IMG/VR virus record: IMGVR_UViG_3300020733_000020
Location: 1 to 55,414 of that record
From: a virus
Reading direction: 5' to 3' (one strand)
Length of the DNA stretch: 55,414 nucleotides
Under the pieces are notes generated by a model. The model did no database searches, was not told the DNA's origin, and saw nothing but the letters and a program-made list of their open reading frames with translations. This document shows, piece by piece, positions 317 to 31,895 of this stretch. Both the position numbers and the translations under genes were made by a program. Position 1 is the stretch's first letter, and every line of letters begins with the position of its first letter.

Positions 317-1144
317 ATGGCCACAAACCCATTACAGCAGTACTTTAGACAACCAAAAGTTTATATCAAGTTACCATCAGGGGGTGCATATTCCAAGCCC
401 GGCAACATACAGGGCGATGTTACACACATGCCTGTTTACGGCATGACTGGCATGGACGAAATTATAATGAAGACTCCTGATTCGCTGTTAACAGGGCAAA
501 GCACAGCACAGGTCATTACCAGTTGCTGTCCTAACATCAAAGATCCTTGGGATATTCCCATAATCGACATCAATGCCATATTGGCCGCAATAAAAATTGC
601 TACATTCGGCAACACACTCAGCGTGACCAGCAAGTGCCCCGGCTGTCAAACCGACAATGATTACGATCTAGATCTTAACAAAATCATTGAGCACTATATG
701 AGTTGTCAGTACAACAACTCTGTGTCTGTGGGCAGTTTAAAAATTAAACTACATCCACTTGATTATAAAACCACTACAGAGTTTGGTATTCGCAACTTCC
801 AACTGCAACAGCAGATGGTGCAAGCAGATCAAATGGAACAAGGTGATGCTCGCACTGAACAAATGAAAAGACTGTTCGAAGAACTGGGCAAACTGCAAAC
901 AGACATTATCAAAAGCATTATAGAAAGCATTGACACTGGTGCTCAAGTGGTTACAGAATCTGAATTTATCAACGAATGGGTTGACAACTGTGACAAGACT
1001 GTGTTCGACAACATCAGAGAACAAAACATCAAGAACAATGAAATCTGGTCTGTTCCTCCTTTTGATGTTGTCTGTGAGAACTGCGGCAAACAGGACAGCA
1101 TCAAAGTAGAGCTGGATGAATCAAATTTTTTCGTCAAAGCCTAA
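317..1144 (+). CDS. 26: Baseplate hub subunit, T4 gp26 type
   Basis: The 275-residue product resembles the gp26-type baseplate hub proteins of T4-like phages (T4_baseplate family). gp26 acts in assembly of the central hub. Four cysteines form two pairs, C107/C110 (KCPGCQ) and C253/C256 (CENCG), which suggests one zinc site joining the middle and C-terminal parts. The ATG at 317 follows CCGGAG and a late-promoter box. The gene is longer than T4 gp26 (about 208 residues). Near its end the codons TCA AAT TTT TTC form canonical -1 slippery heptamers. Frameshifting there would replace the last four residues with a 78-residue gp51-like extension, giving a product of about 349 residues. Family assignment is from recognised sequence pattern, without a search. 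Confidence 0.82.
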   Translation: MATNPLQQYFRQPKVYIKLPSGGAYSKPGNIQGDVTHMPVYGMTGMDEIIMKTPDSLLTGQSTAQVITSCCPNIKDPWDIPIIDINAILAAIKIATFGNTLSVTSKCPGCQTDNDYDLDLNKIIEHYMSCQYNNSVSVGSLKIKLHPLDYKTTTEFGIRNFQLQQQMVQADQMEQGDARTEQMKRLFEELGKLQTDIIKSIIESIDTGAQVVTESEFINEWVDNCDKTVFDNIREQNIKNNEIWSVPPFDVVCENCGKQDSIKVELDESNFFVKA

Positions 1145-1365
1145 TTGGACTAGCACCTGAAGAAGTAGAACGGCGTCTAATTAGGCTAGACAACGAAATC
1201 AAAGAATTCAAGCAAGAACTATTTCGCATATCCTGGTACATGCGTGGCGGTGTTTCAGTCACGGAACTGCTTAACTACTACAGTTACGAAGATCGTGACA
1301 TGATATATAGTGTGATTAAATCTAATCTTGAAGCTACTAAAGAAACTCGTATGCCTCTGATATAA
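1120..1365 (+). CDS. gp51-like extension in the -1 frame, probably made only as a frameshift fusion
   Basis: An open frame directly after a TGA at 1117-1119 runs to TAA at 1363-1365. It contains no ATG, GTG or TTG before an internal ATG at about 1240. It encodes a helical segment with SWYMRGGVSVTELL and SYEDRDMIYSVI and ends ETRMPLI, a pattern I recognise from small proteins beside gp26 in marine T4-like phages; it occupies the position of T4 gene 51 (hub assembly). It is in the -1 frame relative to gp26, overlaps it by only about 25 bases, and the overlap carries slippery heptamers followed by a strong stem. The simplest reading is synthesis as a gp26-gp51 fusion. A rare ATT start at 1144 is the alternative. 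Confidence 0.75.
   Translation: MKFFRQSLIGLAPEEVERRLIRLDNEIKEFKQELFRISWYMRGGVSVTELLNYYSYEDRDMIYSVIKSNLEATKETRMPLI
1123..1187 (+). promoter_or_regulatory. Candidate programmed -1 ribosomal frameshift signal
   Basis: Overlapping heptamers A AAT TTT (1123-1129) and T TTT TTC (1126-1132) are in the correct X XXY YYZ phase of the gp26 frame. They are followed after 5-8 bases by a stem: 1138-1150 (AGCCTAATTGGAC) pairs with 1175-1187 (GTCTAATTAGGCT), 13 base pairs with one G-U, and a 24-base loop. The 0-frame stop at 1142-1144 lies inside the 5' arm, so a ribosome would meet the structure while decoding the slippery site. Confidence 0.8.
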
Positions 1366-1390
1366 AGAAGAACTACGTTCTTCTGTTTTT
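1366..1390 (+). terminator. Rho-independent terminator after the gp26/gp51 unit
   Basis: AGAAGAAC and GTTCTTCT form a perfect 8-bp stem with a TAC loop, followed by GTTTTT. The stem starts at the base after the gp51-like stop codon. Confidence 0.72.
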
Positions 1391-14800: not shown

Positions 14801-15411
14801 TCTATGTATTAACACACAGCTATGATATTGCATTTAGACAATGGGCCGCAACTGGCGGAGTAACAACTGAGCCATTACCTCCAAGCCAAGATGAATTAAA
14901 CACATTGCTGTCACCTAATCTTAATCTAATTAAATCTATTAGTGATGAAATCATCTACCATCCAGTAAACTATACATTGTTATTTGGAACTCTAGCTGAT
15001 CCTAGCTTGCAAGCAACTTTTGAAGTTATGATTAATCCTACATCAGCAGTTAGTTCAGCTAATGTAACAGCTCGAGTATTGACAGCAATTAATCAATTCT
15101 TTGCTCTTGAAAATTGGGACTTTGGTGATACGTTTTATTTCTCAGAATTATCAACTTATGTAATGAATCAATTATCACCGGATATTATTACTTTTGTCAT
15201 CGTACCAGTTCAGACTGGGCAATACTTTGGTAGTTTATTTGAAATTAAATGTCCTAACAACAGTATATTTTTAAGTTGTGCTACAGCAACAAACATACAA
15301 GTAGTAGCAGGTTTAACTTCTACTAATCTTAAAACAGTAACAGGGACAGCATTGTCGGCAACAGTATCTAGTCAACAAATTACTAGTGCAAATTATGGGG
15401 CAAATAATTAA
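11893..15411 (+). CDS. 6: Baseplate wedge subunit gp6, enlarged
   Basis: The N-terminal region is the clear gp6-type wedge sequence: DNLRRTMIDYIRTNFPEDFN, SSEYLALIDIIAYVGQSIAF, RADLNARENFLELAERRES and RLARLVSYNASRN. The C-terminal part (TARVLTAINQFFALENWDFG, YVMNQLSPDIITFVIVPV) matches the dimerisation end of gp6. At 1,172 residues it is about 500 longer than T4 gp6 (660); the extra length is a beta-rich middle section (about residues 300-900) with GAPQTLTVS and GALIKFTAPTGYYF. gp6 forms the iris that holds the baseplate together. Its stop codon shares one base with the next start (TAATG). Confidence 0.9.
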   Translation: MSSTTRQNNLLLAEDWQKIYQSFRNADFQSYDFDNLRRTMIDYIRTNFPEDFNDYIESSEYLALIDIIAYVGQSIAFRADLNARENFLELAERRESILRLARLVSYNASRNVAAQGLLKFSTVQTTENVLDSNGRDLAGQYINWNDSSNPNWYDQFIKVLNAAFPQTQQFGNPSDSATIYGVPTAQYRFNANNTDVPVYAFTKTVAGRNMDFEITSTSFTNETFIYEEPPKIANQIACVYKDDGYGAGSPGTGFFFNFTQGTLNTGTFSVTNPSTNESIDINTPNINDSDVWLYQLNQSTGLESTLWTKIPALTGNNVIYNSVNQKTSTIYAVTTKVSDAVSLNFADGIFGSLPNGDFRVYYRISNGLTYTINPADIVNVSIAIPYISALGAPQTLTVSLSLASSVINATASETNDSVKQNAPQTYYTQNRMITGEDYNISPLAANLQVAKVKSINRTSSGISRYFDLTDPTGKYSSTNLFADDGVIYQQQYTTGTTFSVSGSQVDGAYIQGVIDNTVMPILEDPNLRNFFYSNFVTYTASSLNVSWFSVTNDSNSSSGYIGGTSTTTPFTVGSYTLTDLKYITAGALIKFTAPTGYYFDTKQKNKLVAGTTLPSGGTNYLWATVVSVNGDGTASGTGVLSTGFGAIVLSKVLPTLTDSTGKIIAAPVVSQIIPQFSTTLTSSVQASMIDLILSNSSFGLRYDASTTSWQIIFEQNLNINSTFNLQYQGNNTNTQQDASWLLLFTTDTLTYTITERAVRYVFESDAEVTFYFDDSVKIYDIVGSNTITDLVKILNINTQPDSPSPFTIDYPWQVVSEYIGQDGYIDPKKIIITFADPTNSGVVDNPQQFLDIVSPSTNLLHKFVVQKRYEITQGQEDYKYVVNDPLTGPVLVFSTQTAAYPLSQWTAGQYFYFIDTQTVFQYFPTNTTQQLQPTLDYKVFVGRDNLRFQYTHSADYASRIDPGSSNIMDVYVLTHSYDIAFRQWAATGGVTTEPLPPSQDELNTLLSPNLNLIKSISDEIIYHPVNYTLLFGTLADPSLQATFEVMINPTSAVSSANVTARVLTAINQFFALENWDFGDTFYFSELSTYVMNQLSPDIITFVIVPVQTGQYFGSLFEIKCPNNSIFLSCATATNIQVVAGLTSTNLKTVTGTALSATVSSQQITSANYGANN

Positions 15412-18400
15412 TGGCAACAAATGGTAACATTCCAACAGGTAACACTGGCCTAGGTGTAAATTTTCTTCCAGATTTTTATCAAACACCTGCAAACAAAAAA
15501 TTCTTACAAGCAACCCTTGATCAATTATATCAACCAGGCACAGTAACAAAGACTAGCGGATTTATTGGTCGAGAAAATGCCAAAGCGGCAACAGGTACAG
15601 ATGTATATGTGCAAGCAGCCTCTACTGTTAGACAAAATTATCAACTTGAGCCGGGAATGGTAATCAAAGATAATTTAGGAAATGTCACATTTTTTAAAGA
15701 TTATCAAGATTACATTAATCAATTGAATGTATTTGGAGCCAATACTAAAGACCATGCACGATTAAATGCACAAGAGTTTTATAGCTGGGATCCACATATT
15801 GATTGGGATAAGTTTGTTAACTTCCAAGATTATTACTGGATGCCTTATGGCCCTGACGTAATTAGAATTTATGGACAGCAACAAAATGCAGTTAGCACGT
15901 ATACTGTAGAAATACAATCTGAAAGCAATGTTAATGAATATTTGTTCACACCTAATGGATTAGATTTAAATCCAACTATTAAATTATATAGAGGACAAAC
16001 TTATAATTTTGTTATTAACAGCCCAAGCAATGTTTTTAGTATTAAAACAACTAGATCAATTGGTTCAAGTGATCGGTATGCTACAGGCATTACAAATAAC
16101 GGCATAACTGACGGGGTAATAACTTTTGCAGTTCCAGTTGATGCACCGGATCTTTTATATTATCAAAGCGAAACAGATAGTTATCTTGGTGGTGCAATTG
16201 AGATTTTTGACTATCTAGAAAATTCTAGCATTGATGTTGAGAACGAATTTCTTGGTAAAAAAACTTATACACTAAGCAACGGAACAGCAGTAAGCAACGG
16301 TATGAAAGTACAGTTTGGCGGTAATGTTACACCTGCAGAGTATGCTACCGGAAGTTATTATGTAGAAGGAGTAGGTACAGCTATTAAACTAGTGCCAAGC
16401 TCTCAACTAGAAATTGTTACTTCTTATACTACAAATAATCCTATTAATTTTGATGCAACATCGTTTGATGTAAGCCCATTTGATGATGCTACCGGATTTG
16501 CTAGTATTCAAGATTATATTGTTGTTAATCGTGCTAGTAGAGATCATAATCCGTGGACTCGATACAATCGTTGGTTCCATAAAGATGTAGTTATAGCATC
16601 GGCATCATATAATAAAGATGTGCCTGTTTTAGATCAAACTGCTCGTGCTGTTAGACCAATTATAGAATTCCAAGCTGACCTTAAATTATTCAATATGGGC
16701 ACAACAGCTATAGTCGATGTTGATCTAGTAGATACATTTACTACTAATGTCTTTTCAACTATTGAAGGATCTCGAGGTTATAATGTTGATGGAGTACAAT
16801 TAATACACGGACAAAAAATATTATTTTTAGCAGATACAGATCCATTAGTACAAAATAACATTTATGAAGTTGGTATAGTTAACGTTCGAGGTTATAATCA
16901 AATTACATTAACACAAATTGTAACACCAGAGTTGAATCAATCAACTTTAGTATTGCAAGGCGACAAGAATAAAGGGTTAATGTACTGGTATAACGGTACA
17001 ACATGGACCACTGGTCAGCAAAAATTATCAACTAATCAGCCTCCGTTATTTGATATAGTTGACAGTAATGGTATAAGTTACGGCGATACTAATACATACA
17101 TTGGTAGCTCCTTTGTTGGAACTAAGTTATTTTCATATACTGTTGGTACCGGATCTAATGATATAATTTTAGGATTCCCATTAAGTTATCAAAATGTAAG
17201 TAACATTGGTGATATAGCATTTCAATTTGATTTAGCAACCGATACATTTAACTACAAGCTCAATTCACAATTAATGACAGTGAAAGTCGCATCGGGATAT
17301 CTACTAAGTTTTGATTATTCTGGCAACGAAGTTTTTGTTAACGGTTGGCAAACTTGTACAACTCCTACAGTACAAGCGGCTGTAAGAATATACAAAAATT
17401 CTGGAAAAACTAATGACTTTGCTATTGATGTTTACGATGATATTTCTAATCTTTCAGATTTAATAGTAAAAGTTTATGTTAACGGTATACGTTTAGATCC
17501 TAGCCGTTGGACATTAGTAGCCGGAGCTGCCTATTATGAGATAGTTCTTAATAATGATATTGCAACAACTGATGTGTTGACCATTAGAACATTTGCGGCA
17601 CAACCAATTAACACTAACGGTTATTATGAAATTCCTGTTAACTTACAAAATAATTCTTTAAATTCTAATATTGTTTCTTTTACACTAGGCGAAGTAACTG
17701 ATCACGTAAACAGCATCATTGATAATTTACCATCAAATTTATTTACGGGAGCTTTTCCTGGCGATAGCAATATAAGAGATTTAGGTAATATTACCCAGTA
17801 TGGTACTAAATTTATACAGCATAGCGGACCATTAAGTCTTGCCATGTATCACATTGGTTCAGAAACAAATAATGTTATCAAAGCACTTGAAACTGCACGA
17901 GATGACTATAACAGTTTTAAACGTAATTTTATTTTAACAGCTAGCAATTTAGGTGTTGACGGAACTACAGTACAGTTAGTAGAATTAATTTTACAAAAAA
18001 TTAATAAAGATAAACCTAGTACTGCTCCTTATTATTTTAGTGATATGGTGCCTTATGGTGCTAACACAACGACTGATCTAACAGTTGTAGATTATAGAAT
18101 TAAAACATATCCACTAACTAATGTATTTTCTTTAGATACCTTATCTAGCAAAGCAGTTGGAGTATATCATACTTCAAATAAAGTTAAAGTTCAATTAGTT
18201 TATGGACGTGATTATACTTTTAATAGTCAAGGATTCATTGAAATTACATCAGCGGTAAATTTAATCAACGGCGATATAATTACTACGATTGAATACGATA
18301 GTACTGACGGCTGTTATGTTCCTGCTACTCCTAGCAAGTTAGGAATGTATCCAGCTTATATTCCTCAAATTTATTTAGACACTACATTTTTAAATCCTAT

Positions 18401-21400
18401 AAATGTTATTCAAGGACACGATGGAAGTATTATTGCGGCCTACAACGATTACAGAGATCAATTAATATTAGAATTAGAAACAAGAATTTATAATAATATC
18501 AAAGTAAAATATGATCCTACAATTTTTGATATAACTGATACAATTCCTGGATATAGCAGAAATAATCCTTATTCTCTTACAGAGTTTAATAACATAATTT
18601 CTCCGTCATTCTTTCAATGGGCAGGTTTAGTTGGTATCGATTTTACACAGCAATTAACTTACGATCGATCAAATTCATTTACTTACAATTATTCGGGTGA
18701 TTCTGCACCTGACGGAACTTCAACACCTGGTTTCTGGAGAGGAGTATATCGTTGGATGTTAGATACAGATCGTCCACATCTATGCCCTTGGGAAATGTTG
18801 GGATTTAGTGTCCAGCCATCGTGGTGGACAAGTGTTTATGGTCCTGCACCATATACTAGCGACAATCTAGTCTTATGGTCTGATTTATCTACAGGCACTA
18901 TTAGACAGCCGGGCATGCCATTAACGATTGTAAAAAAATATGCTAGACCATTTTTATTGAATAATATTCCAGTGGACGAAGATGGTAATTTATTAAGTCC
19001 TATTCGATGCGGGTTAGCTAAAGGAATAGTTACTCCTAGCACAGGAAATAATTTTGTGTTTGGCGATGTAAGTCCAATAGAATCTACATGGCGTCGTAGC
19101 AGTTACTATCCATTCAGTTTGATAATAACAGCAATGCTAACAACTCCTGCAAAAACATTTGGTTTATTATTAGATAGATCAAGAATTTCTCGCAACAAAG
19201 CAGGACAAATAGTTTATACTGATAATTTACATATTCAACCATCTGAAATTTTAATTCCAAGTATCTATTCTAGCACAACTAGAGTACAAACAGCTGGGAT
19301 TGTAAACTATATTGTTGATTTAATTTTAAATATTATTTTTAGTAACAATCAAGATTCATATAATGCTTATCAATCAGATTTAAAATTAATAACACCTCAA
19401 CTAAGTTATCGAGTTGGTTCTTTTACTAATCAAGATCAATTTAATTTATTATTAGAAAGTAAAACACCATCTGCTACCGGTAGTGTATTTGTACCGAAAG
19501 AAAGCTATCAAATATTTTTAAACAGTTCAAGTCCTACACAAAAAATTACATATAGTGGTGTAATTATTACTAAGTTATCAACCGGATACGAAGTAAAAGG
19601 TTACAGCAAAACACAACCATATTTTAGTTATTACAATTATTTAGAATCTGGAGTAGATATTAATGTTGGCGGCATATCAGAAAGTTTTGTAGAATGGACA
19701 CCTGGTCAACAATATATTGTTGGACAAATTGTACATTACGGAAATTCTTATTATAGAACTGTAACTAAGAATACAGCAGGCATTACATTTACCGCAAGTT
19801 ATTATGCTTATCTTAAAGCACTACCTATAGTAGGTGGAGTAACTGCTACATTTAGAAATGCATGGGATACTACAACTATAAAAGTTGCACCATACGGAAC
19901 ACAATTTACTACAATACAAGAAGTAGTAGATTTTCTATTAGGCTATGAACAATACTTAAACAAACAAGGTTTTATATTTGACGATTTTAATGAAAAGTTA
20001 AATTCAATAGCTAATTGGTCAACTAGTGCTAAAGAGTTTATGTTTTGGACCACACAAAACTGGTATGGTAGTGATCAGACTTGGAGTGACTGGTTACCTG
20101 GACAAGTTTATCCTTATGGATCGATAGTTCGTTATAACGGAAATTACTATAGTTCTCAATTTAATATCCCTAGCCAGGATTATTTTGATATTGATCAATG
20201 GATATTATTAGCAGGTCTAAGTAATGTAGGAAGTAGCGTAATTAGTCTTAGTCCTGCGGCTAATGGTGTTACATTCATTACAGATCAAACTGTAGTTGAT
20301 AATATTTCAAATCCTTTTAATAGATATGAAATATTCAAAGTCGACGGCACACCGTTCCAACCAAGTCAATTAGATAGCTATAGAGAAAATAATACCGTTA
20401 CTTATAGTCCTAGATCAGCTGACGGAATTTATTGTGCTAGTTTTTATCTAATACAAAATGAACACGTTGTAGTTATTGACAACACAGACATATTTAATGA
20501 TGTCATTTATAACCCTCCAAGCGGTTATCGTAGAGAACGAATTAAAATTTCTGGATACATTACTGAAGGTTGGTATGGCGGTCTAGATATTCCAGGATTT
20601 ATATTTGATGGAGCTAAAGTACAAAGTTGGCAACCGTGGCAAGATTATAACATGGCTGATATTATTGCCTATCAAGGAAATTATTACAGTGCAAATAAAT
20701 TTATTGCCGGTACTGCAAATTTTGATTCTACCCAATGGACTAGATTAAAAAATCAACCATCTGCAAAGTTATTATCAAACTGGACTAATACAGCTACACA
20801 ATTTATAGATTTTTACAGTTTAGACATTGATAATTTTAACACTCAACAACAAGTATTTGCCCAGCATTTAATTGGTTATCAGAAACGACAATACTTAGAT
20901 AATATCATACAAGATCCTGTTTCAGAATTTAAATTCTATCAAGGAATGATACGTGAAAAAGGTACGCAGAATGTATTAAATCATTTGTTTAATGTATTAA
21001 GCAACGATGGCGCCGAAAGTTTAACTTTTTACGAAGAGTGGGCGATTCGTGTAGGACAATACGGTGCAGCCAATGCCTTTGAAAATTTTGAAGTAGTTAT
21101 TGATCAGAATCAATATAAAAACAATCCTCAAGGATATTATTTGACATTGTCAAATAATAAAAATGTTAGTAGCGTTATTAATCAAGTAACTCCTAATGAT
21201 GTTTATTTAAAACCTCTAGGTTATAATAGTAAACCTTTTCCTGAATTGTTAAATTCTAATTCAATATTACGTAGTGCAGGATATGTTAATCCTATAGACG
21301 TTACTTACAATATAGGATCGTTTGATCATATATATGATACTGATGCCAGTGGAAATTTATTGTATCCAGTAACTGGGATTGGTAACGGACAATGCATCTG

Positions 21401-24400
21401 GACAGCATTTGGAACTAACACTTGGAATGTTTATAGATTTACTGATCTATTAATAAGAATTCTTAATGTAACATATTCAACAGATACAAAAATAATTACC
21501 GTAACTGCACAAAATCTAGTACCCCTTAAAGTAGGTGACTGGATCGGTATAACACAAGTATCTAGTATACAAGGATTTTATAAAATTACTAGCGTGACAT
21601 TAAATGTGTTTACAATAGTAAGTCCAAAAACATTAATAGTTCCAGATCCGTTTACTCAGGCAAACGAAGTTGTTGTGTATGCATTAACTCCTCAACGTAC
21701 TAGTTCTATGGATACTCTAGATACATTGTTGTTAAGTCATTTAACACCTAATGCGCTAGTATGGACTGACGATGCTGGTAACAATAATTGGGCAGTATGG
21801 AAATACAATCCCATTTATACCACACAAGCAATTCCTAACTATACTCCTGGAACTGATTTTAATTTTGGTATAAGTCTCTCAGTTAATAGACAATCGTCAA
21901 TCCTAGCAGTAAGTAATAGTCAAGGTACTGTTGACATTTATGATAAAGTGGGTACTTCGATCAAATGGGAAGCAAGAGGACATTTATTAGAACCTTTTAT
22001 TTCAAAGAACGGTCCATTAACTGCAAGTCAAGTAGCCACAGTCTCAGCCATCAGTGCCGACGGCACTTGGTTAGTTACTGGTAGCCCATTGGCAGGACAT
22101 GCAAGAACTAATTACAAAGGAAATTATCAAACTAGTTCAACTTATGCAGTTAATGATATAGTTAGTGTACAAACAGTCACTAACGGAGTAGTTACAAATT
22201 GTTCTTATTACCAAGCATCTCAACCAGTACCGACTAATACTAGTACGACAAATACAAACTATTGGTATAAGATTAATTACATTCCTATTGTTAATCAAGA
22301 ATATGGAGCAGACTCTGCGCTAACTGCTCAGGGTGTAATTAGTATCTATAAAATTGATTCGGCAAATAATTATAATTTAATTGATACAATAGTGAGTCCT
22401 ATACCTTCAGCTAATGAGCAATTTGGCTCTAGTTTTGTTTTTGGTAATAATACATTATATGTTAGTGCCACTGGATACAACAATAATGCTGGAAGAGTCT
22501 ATAAATTATCTTATAAAACAACTGTAGAAATTACAACGCAGTACAATCCAGTTGGCAGTTTAAACAGCACTATAATAGTTACTTCAAACAGCGGTATACG
22601 TGCCGGGATGATTGTTCAAGGTACTGGATTTACTAAAGGACAAACTGTTATTAGTGTAGGAGCAGATGGCGTTACAGTAAATCTAAGCGGCACTCCGGAC
22701 ACAGGTGTAATCCCAGCAGGTACCCTTAGTTTTGTAACCATTGGATGGGCGTATGATTGGTCAGAAAATTATGTCATTAGTGGTACTACTGCCTTAGGCA
22801 CTAGTCTAGTAATAAATGATGACTACAACACACTTGCAATTACAGCAGTTGGTAAAATTTATCTATACAAAAACACAGGTAATGGATTGACATTATTGTC
22901 AACGTTATCTGGTAGTGATACATATTTTGGCAAAGCTGTTGCAGTATCTCCAACTGGAACTTACATAGCGGCGTCCGATGACACATCTGGAAATACAAGT
23001 CAGCAAGGCGGAGTAACTGTATATTCATATAGTAATGGATCTTATTCTAAATATCAAACATTGGTAAACCATCGTCCAGAAACTGATGGATTATTTGGTA
23101 ATAAATTATCATTCATGGATGAAAGTACTATAGTTGTCTATAGCAAAAATGGCGATAATACAATTACTACTTCTTTTGACTCTTTTGAAACAAATCTTTC
23201 TGATAGCCAGGAGTTATACGGTAATCAATATGTTAACGATCAAACATCTGCCGCAACTACACCGACAACATTTGATAAAAAGTCTACTAATTTTACAACT
23301 GTAGAAGTAAACAGTGGCCGTGTAGATATCTATGATAGATACAATACCAACTGGGTGTTTAGTGAAAGCATTACATCTTCTAATTTACCTAGTGACGGAT
23401 ATGGAACAGGATTTGCAGTGGGTAATAGTCAAATCATTGTTAGCGCACCTACTGCAAGTGATCAAAATTTAGCAAGTGGTTTAGTATACAGCTATGGTAA
23501 GATGCAAAATACTTATTCTTGGTCTATTTACGAACAGCAAGATAGTGTTGCAGATATCAGCAAAATTAAAAAAGCGTTTTTATATGATCGTTCACTTGGA
23601 AAATTAATAACATATCTTGATGTAGTAGATCCGTTACAAGGTAAGATACCTGGACCAGCACAAGAAGAAATAACATATCAAACATTTTATGATCCAGCAA
23701 GTTATTCTTACAGTGACGGTACAGTAAATGTGACAGTAAACACCAACGAATACTGGGACACAGCCCCAGTTGGAAAATTATGGTGGGATTTAAGAACAAG
23801 TAAATTTTTAGAAAATAATTTTGGCGACCCTGCCTATCGAAATTTTGCATGGAACACTCTGGCACAAGGTGCAAGTGTCGATGTCTACGAATGGGTGTCG
23901 ACAAATTTATTGCCATCTAATTGGGATACACAAGCAGATACTCCGGCAGGGTTAGCACAGGGTATTAGTGGAACTAGTTTATACGGTAATTCTGCCTACA
24001 GCATAACACAGACTTATGATAATATCAGTAAAACCTTTAGAAATACATATTATTTCTGGGTTAAAAATAGAAAAGTAGTTCCTGCGAATCTTAGCGGAAG
24101 AAATATGGCAGCCAATGATGTTGCCCTACTAATTGCTAATCCTAGGGCTCAAGGCTATACATGTTTGGCAATTACAGGTGTTGATTCGTTTAGCCTAGTT
24201 AATGCCGCACAATATTTAAAAGTAACAGATGTAGTTTTATCTATAGAATATTGGACTATTGATAAAAATGATCAAAATGTACATAGTCAGTGGAAACTAA
24301 TCAGTAATGATACACTAGTCGATTTACCTAAGCCTATTGAACAAAAATGGTTTGATAGTCTTTGCGGTATTGATTTAGGTGGCCGCGCAGTTCCTGATCC

Positions 24401-27400
24401 TGCGTTACCAGTAAAACTTCGTTACGGAGTTGAAAATCGTCCACGCCAAAGCATGTTTGTAAATCGCATTGAAGCGTTAAAAGAATTTATTGAAAAAGTT
24501 AATGCAACACTAATTACATATCAAACAACAGAACTGAAAGATATTAGTCCTTTAGAAAAATTTGATCCTATTCCTGATCCAATTTATGGACTTTATGATA
24601 AATCTGTTGACACATATGAAGAACTAGTATATGCCAGTGTTGGATATTTTTCAACACCTGTCCTAACTCCGATTATAACTAACGGTGTTATAACAGGCAT
24701 TACTGTAGTTAGTTCTGGTACTGGTTATGTATATGCACCTTATATCACGATAACTGGTTCAGGTACTGGTGCTGTAGTACGTTCAACAATTAATACACTA
24801 GGACAAATTACAGGAGCTACAATAATTAGTGGCGGAACTGGATACACCAATAGTACCGCATGTGTAATTCGTAATTATTCTGTATTAGTTAAGAGTGATT
24901 CAACCTCATCTGATGCATGGAGTATCTATAATTATGATGTTACATCTAAACAATATGTAAAAGTACTGACTCAATCTTATAATGTTAATAACTATTGGAG
25001 TTATAAAGATTGGTACGGTTCAGCAACAAACCCAACTACTGGTAAAATATTATTCACTGCTACACAATTTACCGCACCTGATATCACTGTTAATAATTTT
25101 GTAGATTTAAATACTGCGCAAGATATTTTCTTCCAAACTGCACGTAATGGTACAGCAGGGACCGGACAAATAGTTAAAGTATTAAACGGTAACAAAGGCA
25201 AATGGGTGTTACTATATAGATACTCAACTGTAGTATCAGTTGATTGGACACAGAGTTATCAAGTTGTTGGAATACAAGATGGCACTATTCAATTTAATAC
25301 TAACCTGTATGCCTTTGCCGGCACTAGTATCGGATATGATTCAAGCATTTTCAATACTTCAAACTTTGATGTACAAGCAAATGCTGAATTACGAATTATT
25401 CTCAACACGTTGAAAAATAATATATTGATTGGTGATCTAAAACAACAATATTTAGATTTGTTTATTAGTAGTATTCATTATGCTCACAGCGAACAAATAT
25501 ATGTTGACTGGGCCTTTAAAACTAGTTTTGTTCGTGCAACGCACAATGTTGGACAATTAAGCCAGCCAGTTAATTATCCTGTTGATAATTTAAGAAACTT
25601 CCAAGATTATGTTGCAGAAGTTAAACCTTACAGAACAAAAATTAGAGAATATATTAGTCAGTATAAAGGTGTGCCGCAAACAGACGGAGCAGATTGGGCA
25701 TACTCTGGAATAAGCGATTTTGATCTTCAACCTAATTATACTAATAATCAAATTAAACCAATTGAGACTCAATATACTAACAACAGTATATCAGTTGTAG
25801 ACCCAGCAATACAAACATATCCATGGAAATTCTGGGCCGACAATGTTGGATTTAGTATAATTGAAATTAAAATAGTCAACGGTGGTAGCGGATATATTAG
25901 TGCGCCTTTAGTAGTAATTGATCAGCCAACTGGACCAAACGCAGTAGCGGCAACAGCAACAGCTTATGTTACCAATGGATCAGTTAACAGAATTATATTA
26001 ACTAATGTCAACAGCTATGGAGCCGCTGGATCCGGTTATTTAAGCGCACCATCTATTGTGCTTAATGGTGGATTGTCGAACGGCGGAGTTGCTGGAACTG
26101 CAATAGCGGTTATTGGAAAAGGAGCAGTACGTTCTAATTTAACAGAAATGCGTTTTGACCGTGTTAACCAAACTTATTATCTAGCTAACCTTCAACAGAT
26201 TGATACATTTACTGGCACAGGTTCTTTATTACAATTTTCATTAACTTGGGCTCCTGATATTCGTGCAGGACAATCAAGTGCTACAGTTAATGATATTCCT
26301 GTATTAAGAGAATTATACACGTTAACAGTAGTAAGTAAAATTGTAGATGGATATACACAATATACTGGAAAAATTACTTTTGTAACAGCACCTGCGGTTG
26401 GCTCAACAATAGTTGTCACTTACAATAAATCACCTACTGTATTAACAGCGGTTGATCGTATACAATATTACTATAATCCTATAACCGGGCAACTAGGAAA
26501 AAATTTAAGTCAGTTAATGACAGGTGTTGACTACGGTGGAGTTACTGTTAGTGGTTTAGGATTTGATGTTGCTGGTGGATGGGGAACTGCTCCTTATCTT
26601 GCAGATGCATGGGATAGCAGACCTGCTACATTTAACGATTATGCTGTTCAAGTTTCGTCAAATACTCATGTATTTACGCTACCATTTACACCACCAAAAA
26701 ATACACAAATTAATATCTATTTTTCAAGACAAATAACTAAATCTTATACTTCAGACGGAGTGTCAACACAGTATGAATATGATTTAACTTTAAGAAACAT
26801 ATCAGTAAATGTAGTAACAACTACAACTGCTACAGCAGTTACCACTACTTACGTGTCGTCTGAAATATTCAATGGATCGACAGTCAATAGTGGCGGATAT
26901 ACATTGATTGTATCAAGTACTGCTGGTATTGTTCCAGGAATGGTTGTCGGTGGAACTGGATTCACAAAGAGACAAAAAGTTGTTAACATTGTTAATTCAA
27001 CTATTTTAACCATCAATAATGTAGCAGACGGAGTACCGTCTGGCTCAATAACATTTAGTAATCTAGCTGGAGGAGCAGTTCTAACAGTTGCTAGTACTGC
27101 GGGACTAGTAGTTGGTGATGTTGTAACTGCTTCAAGTGCGAATGGTACAATTTTTGCATATGGTACAACTATAACAGCAATTAATTCAGCTACTAGTGTT
27201 ACACTAAATCAAATTATATACACAACTATACCTGTTGGAACTACAATTACGTTCACAAAGAATTTAGTTGAACCAACAGATGTGATTATTAATGCATCTG
27301 GAACTATAGAATTAGCGCAAACATACGTTAGCGGTAGTATTATTAACATTATTGGACAACAACCTCCAGTGAGACTGGACGATCCTTATTATGGTTTAGT

Positions 27401-30400
27401 TGCTACTAGCAACTGGGCAAATAATACTGTATATGCTATCAATAGTCTTGTACTCGTAGATAGTATTTCATATGTATGTCAAACTGCGCATACTTCTGCC
27501 AGCACATGGCCTACAGATTTTGCTAAAGGATATTGGAAAGCAGTAAACACTAATGCAATTATTCCAACACCTATTATTGGTGTTAGTGTAATAGCAAATG
27601 TTGTTGACGGAGGATCTACCGGCGGCGCTGGCGCAACTATCGCAATAACATTTAACGGTGTTGACGATGGCGGATCTGTAGGTGGAGCAAGCGTGACATT
27701 TACTAGTGTTATTGATGGCGGCATTATTGATGATAATCCAACAAACGTAATTGAAATTCCGGCGTCGTTTACCGTGCTAGACGGAGATGAATTTATTCTA
27801 AGAGAAAGTACTAGTGATGGTTCTGTTCCAACTACAGATGCAAATTACGATACAATAATGGATGGTGGAAATTTAGCCTATTCAACTGCTACGGGTATTG
27901 CCGCAGATGACATTCTTGTGGATGGTGACGGATTTGTAACTCCAACCTCTAGTCCTGCACCTGAAGAAGTAGTTCCCGGACAAGTAGTAGATGCGTTAGC
28001 AATTAAAGTTTATGACAAATCACAATCTGGTGCCGCCGCTATCAAAGCTATTTCTCAAGTAACCGACGGTACAACTTCAACTTATTCTATAGGACAAACT
28101 CCTAATAGTCCTAGAGCTATTATAGTAAAATTAGGTAACACTATAAAAACATACGGAGTTGATTATACTGTTAACTATTCGCAAGGCACGATAACATTTA
28201 TTTCAACTACTGTTGTTAATGGAATTACTCAAACAGTTGCTACTGCTCCTACAGCTGGACAGTTAGTAGTAATTTTCAGTATTGGATTTAACGGTAATAA
28301 CATTTTAGATTTAGATTATTTTGTTGGTGATGGAGTAACAACTGAATTTATAACAAGAGCATCTTGGTCTGATTCTGTAACAAGTTTAGTATATGTTGAT
28401 GGACAAGTTGTACCAGTAGAGTTATTTAAAACTGACAACAAATATACATTTCCTAATGCTATTGGTATTCAGTTACAGAACGCACCTAAAGCTGGACAAC
28501 TAATCAATTTTATTATTGTTAGTGGTAATCAGCAGACATTTGCTATTACTAAAACTGAAACAATTATTCCTACAGGTGCTAAAACATATACTCTGCAATA
28601 TCCAATAGGAAAAACATTGCCTAATGAAAGTAATATGATTGTTAGAGTTAATCAATCTATACTGAATACTCCAATTAATAATTATTTTACTATTGCTAAT
28701 AATCAATTAACATATACAGTTGATCCTGCAAAAGCACTTCCATATTCTACAAACAGTAGTAGTGTACAAGTGTATGCAGGTGGCAATCTTTTATTACCAA
28801 GTTCTGATTATTTTGTAGATCCTACAGGAATATCAGTTACTATCAATAAAAATGTTTATGCATTTTATCAAAATGAACAACTAATTGTTAGTATCATAAC
28901 TAACGAAGGATATTCCTATGATCCAGTTACTGGACAAATTACATTTGCATCTGCACCAGCAATTAATTCTACTGTTGAAGTTATTAGCAACTATGTTCAA
29001 GATACCCTTAACATTCAAAGAACAGAAATTCAATATTCGTCAACATATTCGTTGACACCCGGAACAATAGCATTTTTCCAATATAATGCATTAGGCGGTG
29101 GATTAGTAAAACTAGATAGACCTGTAATTGACACTAACTATGTTTGGGTTACTAAAAACCAAACACTTCTATCACCAGGAGTTGAATATAAATTAAATGA
29201 TGACTTACAAAGTTTAAGATTAACAAAACCTTTAGCCAGCTCTGATGTATTAGAAATAATAACATTTGACAGTAATGTTTTACCATCATCTGGTATATCG
29301 TATATGCAGTTTAAAGACATGTTAAATCGTGTAACTTATAAACGATTAAATGCTAACAAGAGAACAACTCTTGTACAAGATTTAAACTGGAATGATACCC
29401 AAATCGCAGTAAGTGATGCTAGTCAATTTGATCAACCTAATGCCGCTGGAAATCGCCCCGGCGTAATTGAAATTCGAGGAGAACGCATAGAATATTTTGC
29501 AATAGATTATAATACAAATACTTTAAGCCAACTACGCAGAGGAACGTTAGGAACTGGTATCTATAACACTAACAAGATTGGATCATTTGTTCAAAATATT
29601 AGCGCCAGCGAAAATATTCCGTATGTTGACACAATAACAACTGATACAATAAAATCACCAGGAGGCGGTGTTCCTAGAGTAACTGGTTCAGTGTTAGCTA
29701 CAACCTCAAGTGTTTCGCAAGCTATTGGATCTTTCTCTATAACATCGACTACTGGACAACTAGCAGTTAAAACAGGAAGTTATTATATAGGGCAAGTAGT
29801 ATCAATAACCGGACAACCAGCTCACGCTACTCTTAATGGTGTAGTATCACTAGGAACAGGAGGACAATTTTATTGCCTACCATCTTTAGTAACACTAGCA
29901 GTAGGACAGTCAGTAAACATTACAAACAAAACAGCTACTTTGTATTTGAGCGGGATAGCTATTACTGGAACGAGTGGACAATTTAGTTGCACAGCAAGCC
30001 CTGCACCATTGATTCCAGGGCAACAAGTAACTCTATTAGGGTTAACAAATGTTGTTCATACATTATCTGGAGTGTCAATAACAGGAACATCAGGCAACTT
30101 TAATTGTAATCCGTCGTCAATTGTTCTTGCAGTCGGGCAAACAGTTACAATTTCTGGACAAGCAGGTGGCAATGGAAGTATTGTTGGATACACTAGTCCC
30201 ACAACTTATACTATTAATTCAACAGATGGAAGATCAATTTTTTCATTAATTACTGCTCCAGCAACATTTACAAATATTTCTGCTACTACTGTTACTGGAT
30301 TTGGATCCGGAGCAAGATTTACAATACTTGCGGCAAATACTGTTTATACTGTTACTGTTGTATCTGGAGGATCAAATTACGCAGTCAATGATACTCTTAC

Positions 30401-31895
30401 AATTTTAGGGACATCATTAGGTGGCACAACACCAGCTAACGATTTATCTATAGTAGTAACTAATATCAATAATGGTATAATAACCGGAGTTAAAGCTTCT
30501 GGAACAACACTATACGGAAAACAGATAACAACTATTAAAGGCACACCAACTGGTTTAACATACACAGTTACAGCTGGTACAGGAAGTATATTAAACTATG
30601 TTGCTCCGCAAGTATATCAAATATCACAAACTGATGGATCAACAACATTTACATTGACTACTACAAGTGGGCAAGCTCTTGTAACTACTCCTGGAATACC
30701 TGCAGATGGTAATACTATTAGCACTGGATTGCAAATGTCATTAAATTCAGGAAGTGTTACAGGATACGGAAATACAGCAACAAGTCAACAAAGTTATTAT
30801 ATTGTTAACACTAATGGATCTACAAGATTTACATTGTCAACGACTCTAAACGGTGGACCAATTTCTACCACATTTGGAACAATGAATGGTCAACAATATT
30901 CAGTGAGTGCCGCAACAATTAATAATTATGTAAATCCAACTAACTATTTCGTTGTTGCTACCGACGGCTCGTCGACAATAACATTATCTACAAAATTAGG
31001 CGGAACTCCGGTTAATTCTGTAATAGGAACTGCTAGCGGATTGTCAGCAAATATTATTGATAGTGCAATAACTTTAAGCAGTACAAGCGGATTATCAGCA
31101 TTGCAAAAAATTACAATTCAAGGCAATGGTGGTGGTGGACTAACAGCCGGCACATATTATGTTGTTAACCCAAATGCTGGAAATAATCAAATTACACTAG
31201 CATCAACATTGGCATTAGCACAAGCTGGTAAATCTATTAACACACTAACTAGTGCAACATTATCAAATACAACCTATACTTCGGGAGGTCAAGAAATTAG
31301 TATTGGATTTATACCAGCTAATGCTGATCAGATTGAAGTATTTGTTGGCGGATATAATACATTAGAGTGGACAGCTAATACAGGATATACAGTCGGAACC
31401 ATTGTATCAGTTGGGGCATACACTTATAGATGTACAACAGATCACACTAGTTCAGCAGAATTTGGTAAAGATTTAGCCAACTGGTATTTCTTTGTTGAAA
31501 ATATTCGTCTAAGAAAATCAGCTTACAGTACATTTAATGTAAACCAAGCACCATATAGCCCTGCAGGCGACGTTAGTTTTATTCCTGATTTTATAGTTGA
31601 CGGAACAAGATCAGTGGTAACATTAACAACTCCTTTAGCACTTGGAACACAAGTTACTGTGGTTAGAAAAACAGGAACACAGTGGGACGGTAACAAATAT
31701 CTTACAACAGTAGATTCGACTAAAGCTCCATCGGTAAATATTTTAAATGATAATTCTGCGATTGCTAATTTTATTAAGTCAGTACCTGGTGTTTGGTATA
31801 CTGAGTATAAACAAATAAGTAATAGTATGGCAGGAACATTTGATGCCAGCTCCACTACTTTTGACATCAACAACATAACATTTGATCAAGGATAA
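15411..31895 (+). CDS. Giant multidomain virion structural protein (5,494 residues)
   Basis: One uninterrupted frame of 16.5 kb. The N-terminus (GVNFLPDFYQTPANKKFLQA, ARLNAQEFYSWDPHIDWDKF, YYWMPYGPDV) is a conserved block of giant baseplate/tail proteins in aquatic T4-like phages, and the gene lies where T4 has gene 7 after gene 6. Further segments: W-x5-Y-x-(V/I)-G modules near residues 1428, 1561, 1740, 4002 and 5320, reminiscent of chitin/carbohydrate-binding modules; FG-GAP-like propeller repeats at about 2150-2700; a conserved block with YYFWVKNRKVVP near 2880; GGSGY repeats near 3100-3140 and 3490-3540; GERIEYF and LSQLRRGTLGTG near 4690-4710; and tandem repeats at about 4800-5250. The product is probably a large baseplate-attached arm or fibre. 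The exact role is unknown, and the gp7 link is positional. Confidence 0.8.
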   Translation: MATNGNIPTGNTGLGVNFLPDFYQTPANKKFLQATLDQLYQPGTVTKTSGFIGRENAKAATGTDVYVQAASTVRQNYQLEPGMVIKDNLGNVTFFKDYQDYINQLNVFGANTKDHARLNAQEFYSWDPHIDWDKFVNFQDYYWMPYGPDVIRIYGQQQNAVSTYTVEIQSESNVNEYLFTPNGLDLNPTIKLYRGQTYNFVINSPSNVFSIKTTRSIGSSDRYATGITNNGITDGVITFAVPVDAPDLLYYQSETDSYLGGAIEIFDYLENSSIDVENEFLGKKTYTLSNGTAVSNGMKVQFGGNVTPAEYATGSYYVEGVGTAIKLVPSSQLEIVTSYTTNNPINFDATSFDVSPFDDATGFASIQDYIVVNRASRDHNPWTRYNRWFHKDVVIASASYNKDVPVLDQTARAVRPIIEFQADLKLFNMGTTAIVDVDLVDTFTTNVFSTIEGSRGYNVDGVQLIHGQKILFLADTDPLVQNNIYEVGIVNVRGYNQITLTQIVTPELNQSTLVLQGDKNKGLMYWYNGTTWTTGQQKLSTNQPPLFDIVDSNGISYGDTNTYIGSSFVGTKLFSYTVGTGSNDIILGFPLSYQNVSNIGDIAFQFDLATDTFNYKLNSQLMTVKVASGYLLSFDYSGNEVFVNGWQTCTTPTVQAAVRIYKNSGKTNDFAIDVYDDISNLSDLIVKVYVNGIRLDPSRWTLVAGAAYYEIVLNNDIATTDVLTIRTFAAQPINTNGYYEIPVNLQNNSLNSNIVSFTLGEVTDHVNSIIDNLPSNLFTGAFPGDSNIRDLGNITQYGTKFIQHSGPLSLAMYHIGSETNNVIKALETARDDYNSFKRNFILTASNLGVDGTTVQLVELILQKINKDKPSTAPYYFSDMVPYGANTTTDLTVVDYRIKTYPLTNVFSLDTLSSKAVGVYHTSNKVKVQLVYGRDYTFNSQGFIEITSAVNLINGDIITTIEYDSTDGCYVPATPSKLGMYPAYIPQIYLDTTFLNPINVIQGHDGSIIAAYNDYRDQLILELETRIYNNIKVKYDPTIFDITDTIPGYSRNNPYSLTEFNNIISPSFFQWAGLVGIDFTQQLTYDRSNSFTYNYSGDSAPDGTSTPGFWRGVYRWMLDTDRPHLCPWEMLGFSVQPSWWTSVYGPAPYTSDNLVLWSDLSTGTIRQPGMPLTIVKKYARPFLLNNIPVDEDGNLLSPIRCGLAKGIVTPSTGNNFVFGDVSPIESTWRRSSYYPFSLIITAMLTTPAKTFGLLLDRSRISRNKAGQIVYTDNLHIQPSEILIPSIYSSTTRVQTAGIVNYIVDLILNIIFSNNQDSYNAYQSDLKLITPQLSYRVGSFTNQDQFNLLLESKTPSATGSVFVPKESYQIFLNSSSPTQKITYSGVIITKLSTGYEVKGYSKTQPYFSYYNYLESGVDINVGGISESFVEWTPGQQYIVGQIVHYGNSYYRTVTKNTAGITFTASYYAYLKALPIVGGVTATFRNAWDTTTIKVAPYGTQFTTIQEVVDFLLGYEQYLNKQGFIFDDFNEKLNSIANWSTSAKEFMFWTTQNWYGSDQTWSDWLPGQVYPYGSIVRYNGNYYSSQFNIPSQDYFDIDQWILLAGLSNVGSSVISLSPAANGVTFITDQTVVDNISNPFNRYEIFKVDGTPFQPSQLDSYRENNTVTYSPRSADGIYCASFYLIQNEHVVVIDNTDIFNDVIYNPPSGYRRERIKISGYITEGWYGGLDIPGFIFDGAKVQSWQPWQDYNMADIIAYQGNYYSANKFIAGTANFDSTQWTRLKNQPSAKLLSNWTNTATQFIDFYSLDIDNFNTQQQVFAQHLIGYQKRQYLDNIIQDPVSEFKFYQGMIREKGTQNVLNHLFNVLSNDGAESLTFYEEWAIRVGQYGAANAFENFEVVIDQNQYKNNPQGYYLTLSNNKNVSSVINQVTPNDVYLKPLGYNSKPFPELLNSNSILRSAGYVNPIDVTYNIGSFDHIYDTDASGNLLYPVTGIGNGQCIWTAFGTNTWNVYRFTDLLIRILNVTYSTDTKIITVTAQNLVPLKVGDWIGITQVSSIQGFYKITSVTLNVFTIVSPKTLIVPDPFTQANEVVVYALTPQRTSSMDTLDTLLLSHLTPNALVWTDDAGNNNWAVWKYNPIYTTQAIPNYTPGTDFNFGISLSVNRQSSILAVSNSQGTVDIYDKVGTSIKWEARGHLLEPFISKNGPLTASQVATVSAISADGTWLVTGSPLAGHARTNYKGNYQTSSTYAVNDIVSVQTVTNGVVTNCSYYQASQPVPTNTSTTNTNYWYKINYIPIVNQEYGADSALTAQGVISIYKIDSANNYNLIDTIVSPIPSANEQFGSSFVFGNNTLYVSATGYNNNAGRVYKLSYKTTVEITTQYNPVGSLNSTIIVTSNSGIRAGMIVQGTGFTKGQTVISVGADGVTVNLSGTPDTGVIPAGTLSFVTIGWAYDWSENYVISGTTALGTSLVINDDYNTLAITAVGKIYLYKNTGNGLTLLSTLSGSDTYFGKAVAVSPTGTYIAASDDTSGNTSQQGGVTVYSYSNGSYSKYQTLVNHRPETDGLFGNKLSFMDESTIVVYSKNGDNTITTSFDSFETNLSDSQELYGNQYVNDQTSAATTPTTFDKKSTNFTTVEVNSGRVDIYDRYNTNWVFSESITSSNLPSDGYGTGFAVGNSQIIVSAPTASDQNLASGLVYSYGKMQNTYSWSIYEQQDSVADISKIKKAFLYDRSLGKLITYLDVVDPLQGKIPGPAQEEITYQTFYDPASYSYSDGTVNVTVNTNEYWDTAPVGKLWWDLRTSKFLENNFGDPAYRNFAWNTLAQGASVDVYEWVSTNLLPSNWDTQADTPAGLAQGISGTSLYGNSAYSITQTYDNISKTFRNTYYFWVKNRKVVPANLSGRNMAANDVALLIANPRAQGYTCLAITGVDSFSLVNAAQYLKVTDVVLSIEYWTIDKNDQNVHSQWKLISNDTLVDLPKPIEQKWFDSLCGIDLGGRAVPDPALPVKLRYGVENRPRQSMFVNRIEALKEFIEKVNATLITYQTTELKDISPLEKFDPIPDPIYGLYDKSVDTYEELVYASVGYFSTPVLTPIITNGVITGITVVSSGTGYVYAPYITITGSGTGAVVRSTINTLGQITGATIISGGTGYTNSTACVIRNYSVLVKSDSTSSDAWSIYNYDVTSKQYVKVLTQSYNVNNYWSYKDWYGSATNPTTGKILFTATQFTAPDITVNNFVDLNTAQDIFFQTARNGTAGTGQIVKVLNGNKGKWVLLYRYSTVVSVDWTQSYQVVGIQDGTIQFNTNLYAFAGTSIGYDSSIFNTSNFDVQANAELRIILNTLKNNILIGDLKQQYLDLFISSIHYAHSEQIYVDWAFKTSFVRATHNVGQLSQPVNYPVDNLRNFQDYVAEVKPYRTKIREYISQYKGVPQTDGADWAYSGISDFDLQPNYTNNQIKPIETQYTNNSISVVDPAIQTYPWKFWADNVGFSIIEIKIVNGGSGYISAPLVVIDQPTGPNAVAATATAYVTNGSVNRIILTNVNSYGAAGSGYLSAPSIVLNGGLSNGGVAGTAIAVIGKGAVRSNLTEMRFDRVNQTYYLANLQQIDTFTGTGSLLQFSLTWAPDIRAGQSSATVNDIPVLRELYTLTVVSKIVDGYTQYTGKITFVTAPAVGSTIVVTYNKSPTVLTAVDRIQYYYNPITGQLGKNLSQLMTGVDYGGVTVSGLGFDVAGGWGTAPYLADAWDSRPATFNDYAVQVSSNTHVFTLPFTPPKNTQINIYFSRQITKSYTSDGVSTQYEYDLTLRNISVNVVTTTTATAVTTTYVSSEIFNGSTVNSGGYTLIVSSTAGIVPGMVVGGTGFTKRQKVVNIVNSTILTINNVADGVPSGSITFSNLAGGAVLTVASTAGLVVGDVVTASSANGTIFAYGTTITAINSATSVTLNQIIYTTIPVGTTITFTKNLVEPTDVIINASGTIELAQTYVSGSIINIIGQQPPVRLDDPYYGLVATSNWANNTVYAINSLVLVDSISYVCQTAHTSASTWPTDFAKGYWKAVNTNAIIPTPIIGVSVIANVVDGGSTGGAGATIAITFNGVDDGGSVGGASVTFTSVIDGGIIDDNPTNVIEIPASFTVLDGDEFILRESTSDGSVPTTDANYDTIMDGGNLAYSTATGIAADDILVDGDGFVTPTSSPAPEEVVPGQVVDALAIKVYDKSQSGAAAIKAISQVTDGTTSTYSIGQTPNSPRAIIVKLGNTIKTYGVDYTVNYSQGTITFISTTVVNGITQTVATAPTAGQLVVIFSIGFNGNNILDLDYFVGDGVTTEFITRASWSDSVTSLVYVDGQVVPVELFKTDNKYTFPNAIGIQLQNAPKAGQLINFIIVSGNQQTFAITKTETIIPTGAKTYTLQYPIGKTLPNESNMIVRVNQSILNTPINNYFTIANNQLTYTVDPAKALPYSTNSSSVQVYAGGNLLLPSSDYFVDPTGISVTINKNVYAFYQNEQLIVSIITNEGYSYDPVTGQITFASAPAINSTVEVISNYVQDTLNIQRTEIQYSSTYSLTPGTIAFFQYNALGGGLVKLDRPVIDTNYVWVTKNQTLLSPGVEYKLNDDLQSLRLTKPLASSDVLEIITFDSNVLPSSGISYMQFKDMLNRVTYKRLNANKRTTLVQDLNWNDTQIAVSDASQFDQPNAAGNRPGVIEIRGERIEYFAIDYNTNTLSQLRRGTLGTGIYNTNKIGSFVQNISASENIPYVDTITTDTIKSPGGGVPRVTGSVLATTSSVSQAIGSFSITSTTGQLAVKTGSYYIGQVVSITGQPAHATLNGVVSLGTGGQFYCLPSLVTLAVGQSVNITNKTATLYLSGIAITGTSGQFSCTASPAPLIPGQQVTLLGLTNVVHTLSGVSITGTSGNFNCNPSSIVLAVGQTVTISGQAGGNGSIVGYTSPTTYTINSTDGRSIFSLITAPATFTNISATTVTGFGSGARFTILAANTVYTVTVVSGGSNYAVNDTLTILGTSLGGTTPANDLSIVVTNINNGIITGVKASGTTLYGKQITTIKGTPTGLTYTVTAGTGSILNYVAPQVYQISQTDGSTTFTLTTTSGQALVTTPGIPADGNTISTGLQMSLNSGSVTGYGNTATSQQSYYIVNTNGSTRFTLSTTLNGGPISTTFGTMNGQQYSVSAATINNYVNPTNYFVVATDGSSTITLSTKLGGTPVNSVIGTASGLSANIIDSAITLSSTSGLSALQKITIQGNGGGGLTAGTYYVVNPNAGNNQITLASTLALAQAGKSINTLTSATLSNTTYTSGGQEISIGFIPANADQIEVFVGGYNTLEWTANTGYTVGTIVSVGAYTYRCTTDHTSSAEFGKDLANWYFFVENIRLRKSAYSTFNVNQAPYSPAGDVSFIPDFIVDGTRSVVTLTTPLALGTQVTVVRKTGTQWDGNKYLTTVDSTKAPSVNILNDNSAIANFIKSVPGVWYTEYKQISNSMAGTFDASSTTFDINNITFDQG
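29836..30160 (+). repeat. Coding tandem repeats of about 38-39 residues in the giant protein
   Basis: Three units share the pattern L-x-G-V-x-(I/L)-x-G-T-(S/G)-G-x-F-x-C, with GTGGQFYC, GTSGQFSC and GTSGNFNC encoded about 114 and 117 bases apart, each followed by a VGQ-type turn (AVGQSVNI, IPGQQVTL, AVGQTVTI). One cysteine recurs per unit. A second repeat family with (T/N)(D/N)GS(T/S) and FTL follows to about 31020. Confidence 0.7.

Follow-up and report, generated by a model that had tools for sequence, protein, structure and literature searches.

A gp26-family gene of a T4-like phage that very probably encodes short and long tail assembly chaperones through programmed −1 frameshifting

The 55.4-kb virus record IMGVR_UViG_3300020733_000020 (the window, positions 1–55 414 of the record) contains close to one end a gene whose 3′ end overlaps a second open frame, the first half of which lacks a start codon. 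The record itself was the sequence studied, and its homologues were the source of the conservation tests. The first, 0-frame open reading frame (317–1144, plus strand) encodes a 275-residue protein that matches PF12322 in a profile search (E = 4.7 × 10−16, 59.6 bits against a cut-off of 24.5) and the baseplate hub family phrog_150 of PHROGs (E = 3.3 × 10−18), and it is assigned to the gp26 family of T4 baseplate hub assembly proteins. An AF2 model of this protein (pLDDT 85.5) shows a fold match in BFVD to T4-like baseplate hub proteins (E = 1.9 × 10−20); the model has no significant match among solved structures. Two invariant CxxC pairs in the gp26-like protein (Cys107/Cys110 and Cys253/Cys256) suggest a zinc-binding site.

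The 0 frame ends TCA AAT TTT TTC GTC AAA GCC TAA, with its stop at 1142–1144. The −1 frame opens at 1120, directly after a TGA (1117–1119), and closes at a TAA (1363–1365). Every coordinate given in the preliminary description proved right. Because this TGA blocks the −1 frame immediately 5′ of the slip site, the extension (1120–1365, plus strand) can be reached only by a shift near that site. A shift there would join 272 residues of the 0 frame to 77 residues of the −1 frame (1133–1362), in agreement with the fusion of about 349 residues proposed in a preliminary description of this DNA. The two overlapping frames thus predict a short form of a tail assembly chaperone (TAC-N, 275 residues) and a long form (TAC-NC, 349 residues) with a common N-terminus. 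A terminator-like hairpin (1366–1384, plus strand) directly follows the −1-frame stop; two such hairpins were found in the region against 1.7 expected, and its position fits, weakly, a single transcription unit that ends after the extension.

Where the two frames overlap there are two heptamers that share bases and are both in phase with the 0 frame, A AAT TTT (1123–1129) and T TTT TTC (1126–1132). Both had been put forward as slip sites in the preliminary description, and both are present as described, but only the second is conserved. Among 80 loci recovered with the gp26-like protein, T TTT TTC is in phase in every locus that reaches the junction, the one exception being a contig that ends before it. 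An independent search with the extension alone, in which loci were not selected on the heptamer, gave 75 distinct loci, in all 75 of which TTTTTTC stands at the predicted codon and is followed after 3, 9 or 12 nucleotides by the stop of the 0 frame; a homologue with a separate or non-slippery extension, which would count against frameshifting, was sought among these loci and none was found. The codon preceding the two phenylalanines varies (AAT, AGT, ACT or CAT, encoding Asn, Ser, Thr or His), and its last base is always T. The second phenylalanine codon is always TTC, though TTC makes up 19% of the phenylalanine codons in these genes; this choice is also required by the −1-frame arginine codon CGN, which is invariant in nearly all homologues. 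The heptamer is not rare by itself, with 13 occurrences in the whole window against 18.7 expected, and its significance lies instead in its phase, its position, its place in the overlap and its conservation.

AAATTTT is found in just 24 of 55 distinct homologues, which rules it out as the main slip site and leaves it as at most an auxiliary one; a shift at this heptamer would give the same fusion with the same NFFR junction. No strong Shine–Dalgarno-like stimulator was found upstream, the only candidate being a GGA nine nucleotides upstream in 34 of the 55 homologues. Since a conserved aspartate codon accounts for this GGA, the signal is no more than codon-driven and an internal Shine–Dalgarno stimulator was ruled out.

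The −1 frame contains no ATG, GTG or TTG before position 1240, where its first ATG lies about 38 codons in and falls inside the conserved motif WYMRGG. Past the 0-frame stop it has no stop codon in any of 56 distinct sequences, its median pN/pS in these sequences is 0.26, the two alternative frames giving 1.05 and 2.09, and third codon positions of the extension vary the most. Sequence comparison thus establishes purifying selection on the extension as read in the −1 frame. The block FFRxxL...WYMRGG... is gap-free and colinear over 79 residues in 30 aligned sequences. The extension is modelled by AF2 as a small helical domain (pLDDT 88.7) and showed no significant match to Pfam, PHROGs, PDB sequences or BFVD folds. 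A frame that opens after the TGA, lacks a usable start and encodes a conserved-looking protein had been noticed from the single sequence; the TGA and the lack of an early start are confirmed there, and the homologues bear out the conservation.

A 13-bp stem, formed by 1138–1150 and 1175–1187 (plus strand; 12 Watson–Crick pairs and one G–U pair), carries the 0-frame stop in its 5′ arm, exactly as first described. It begins five nucleotides past TTTTTTC and eight past AAATTTT, both within the 5–9 nucleotides looked for in a −1 frameshift cassette. The segment 1133–1200 folds with −22.3 kcal/mol (z = −3.98), and none of 200 shuffled sequences folds as well. Across 39 distinct relatives 90.1% of the alignment cells in the stem are paired and 36 cells are changed on both sides; none of 500 shuffles reaches either value, and structures slid along the alignment give 18–50%. 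As the region is protein-coding, synonymous codons were resampled as a further control; 11.7 of the 13 pairs are formed in the real sequences compared with 8.7 ± 0.24 in the resampled ones, and the mean minimum folding energy is −17.2 compared with −9.9. Rfam contains no known RNA family at the position of the stem. Distant relatives among the jumbo phages, for example Atu_ph07 and Phosso, have stems of unrelated sequence whose pairing often likewise starts at +5/+6; the arms in Atu_ph07 are GGCTCTTTGT and ACAAAGAGCC (z = −5.3 against resampling). A convincing downstream stem was not found in the minority clades L059, L065, L067, L075, L077 and L084, and the stem is thus a common but not a universal stimulator. 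Of the conservation looked for in aligned junctions, that of the slip site holds and the stem covaries in the 39 relatives, the stem being weak or absent in some clades. The frames, the conserved slip site, the conserved stem and the selection on the extension are in this way established by comparison.

These features very probably represent a single gene of a T4-like phage that encodes its tail assembly chaperone (TAC) by programmed −1 ribosomal frameshifting, the reading originally suggested, for which lambda G/GT is an apt analogy and which has stood up to every test applied here, with support from the conserved slip site, the selection and the stem. The same product could in principle arise through transcriptional slippage, in which RNA polymerase would gain or lose a base while copying the run of six T residues, so that ribosomes could enter the extension on the changed mRNA with no slip of their own. 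The T6 run is present in every homologue and RAS14 and Melnitz have runs of at least seven T residues, as this explanation would have it; however, what never varies is a heptamer suited to tandem slippage and set in an exact codon phase, as a rule with a stem after it that re-forms at +5/+6, and polymerase slippage would not need the codon phase. A run of six bases is also short for slippage by bacterial polymerases, and we regard this explanation as improbable.

Translation of the extension as a separate small gene, by re-initiation or from an internal start, is how the GenBank records of several relatives present it (a short ORF of its own is called in Atu_ph07, Munch, 121Q, XaC1 and others), and the ATG at 1240, which encodes the methionine of WYMRGG, is nearly invariant. 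Conservation nevertheless starts at the heptamer (FFRxxL), some 38 codons 5′ of this ATG and in a stretch that has no start codons in the window, purifying selection spans the whole −1 frame, and no Shine–Dalgarno motif is seen before 1240. The absence of early starts, the 79-residue conservation and the selection over the whole frame together rule out a separate start or re-initiation, which we consider very improbable indeed. An insertion or deletion can likewise leave two frames of one family side by side, as would be the case for an assembly or sequencing error or for a decayed gp26–gp51 fusion, but the identical arrangement recurs across numerous contigs of separate origin and in named phages that were each sequenced independently, which refutes an error or a pseudogene and reduces its probability to a negligible level.

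In the mechanism proposed for programmed frameshifting, most ribosomes would stop at 1142–1144 and release the 275-residue gp26-like TAC-N. A fraction would be delayed by the stem five nucleotides downstream, and the phenylalanyl-tRNAs in the P and A sites on TTT TTC would re-pair one base back on TTT TTT, after which reading would continue CGT CAA AGC in the −1 frame to give the 349-residue TAC-NC. If the two forms work as lambda gpG and gpGT do, TAC-N would cover the tape measure or hub, and the helical C-terminal domain of the less abundant TAC-NC would engage partners from the tail tube or baseplate. We infer the occurrence of the shift, its efficiency and the chaperone role. T4 makes the equivalent pair of proteins from its separate genes 26 and 51.

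The same junction is present in Agrobacterium phage Atu_ph07, Sinorhizobium phage Phosso, Salmonella phage Munch, Pseudomonas phage Paride, Xanthomonas phage XaC1, 121Q, CBB, RaK2, SCTP-2, cyanophage S-RIM8, Delftia phage PhiW-14, Vibrio phage VH1_2019 (KVP40-like) and Aeromonas phage ZPAH1; in RAS14 and Melnitz the site reads TTTTTTT. The joined product is annotated in none of the inspected records of relatives, in which the extension is either unannotated or listed as a separate hypothetical protein. The long chaperone is thus missed by standard annotation, and taking it into account puts right the gene models of numerous T4-like phages, both jumbo and environmental. The predicted frameshift product would supply the long form, a functional counterpart of gp51, that is seemingly missing from these phages. 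In the Ackermannviridae T765 (L089) and VAP7 (L100) an open −1 frame of comparable length also comes after the gp26-family gene, with no TTTTTTC; VAP7 has GTTTTTC and T765 only GATTTTC, so that these two phages would use some other shift signal or a different mechanism.

TAC genes usually lie near the tape measure gene, T4 gene 26 being an exception. A tape measure gene was not identified adjoining the TAC gene in the window, in which the neighbours are gp46/gp47-like recombination genes as judged from their position and from how the relative Atu_ph07 is annotated. In RaK2 the divergent upstream neighbour of the TAC gene is noted as tape-measure-like. The intergenic segment 1665–1805 (minus strand), downstream of the TAC gene, is a full-length match to Rfam RF01718, the Polynucleobacter-1 RNA (64.8 bits, gathering cut-off 37, E = 1.6 × 10−11 for the whole window); the occurrence of this bacterial small RNA motif on a phage hints at a Polynucleobacter-like host or at a phage origin of the motif. 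Elsewhere in the window a single open reading frame of 5494 residues (15411–31895, plus strand), very long for a phage, lies between an open reading frame of 1172 residues and the tail and baseplate genes.

T4 gp26 and gp51 both match PF12322, the family of the 0-frame protein studied here. The last residues of T4 gp26, ...LKEFFELL, coincide with the shift position, whereas T4 gp51, its paralogue, continues with an additional C-terminal part; in T4 the two are encoded by separate, divergently transcribed genes, in contrast to the single frameshifting gene of the present virus. Two PF12322 genes were found in each of five phages with T4-type gp26 and gp51, compared with exactly one in 10 of the 11 frameshift phages searched (in SCTP-2 none reached the threshold). 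The extension was initially termed gp51-like, a label that is backed by position and architecture and weakly by sequence: by hhalign the studied extension matches the gp51 C-terminus with a probability of 1.8% (E = 0.011) alone and 23% (E = 9 × 10−4) with the jumbo-phage extensions pooled. Profile comparison relates the studied extension to those of the jumbo phages (99.8%) and the cyanophage-type extensions to the gp51 C-terminus (96.6%, E = 7 × 10−10).

Of the possible histories, we lean towards one in which a single TAC gene with a T TTT TTC frameshift was ancestral to the whole T4-like superfamily (cyanophages, KVP40-like phages and jumbo phages) and was long held, with stems made anew and independently at +5/+6 in different clades; T4 genes 26 and 51 would then be the outcome of a duplication after which the extension was retained in one copy and lost from the other. 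No relic slip site was found in T4 gene 26, where the −1 frame is closed by a stop. If the frameshift was indeed ancestral, a ratio of short to long chaperone set by frameshifting gave way in T4 to two genes. The contrast of one gene with two in one superfamily makes the role of this ratio in tail or baseplate assembly testable.

In lambda gpG/gpGT and other tail assembly chaperones the short protein is made by normal termination (Xu, Hendrix and Duda 2004, as cited in PMC5009743). Lambda G and GT belong to a different protein family from the gene studied here, which encodes a PF12322 protein of about 275 residues with T TTT TTC and a strong downstream stem. Whether frameshifting had been described for gp26/gp51 of T4-type phages was left in doubt by the preliminary description; a secondary citation answers this, since poly-T sequences are referred to as known −1 slippery sites in the TAC-N genes of T4-like phages in a passage of PMC12846349 citing Vladimirov, Gautam and Davidson 2022. 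Some T4-like phages are stated to have short and long TAC genes instead (PMC12846349 and PMC10885494, in passages citing Vladimirov 2022). In the Vandenendeviridae and Andersonviridae a conserved −1 frameshift occurs on GTTTTT at the 3′ end of TAC-N, and the extension is often mis-annotated (PMC12846349); the present gene likewise has a poly-T −1 shift site at the 3′ end of TAC-N, but the motif and the phage families differ. TAC frameshifting in T4-like phages is thus already cited as known in that passage of PMC12846349, and the gene studied here is a clear further example, to which the present comparison adds the invariance of T TTT TTC in a large uncultivated clade, a covarying stem and the contrast between one-gene and two-gene arrangements.
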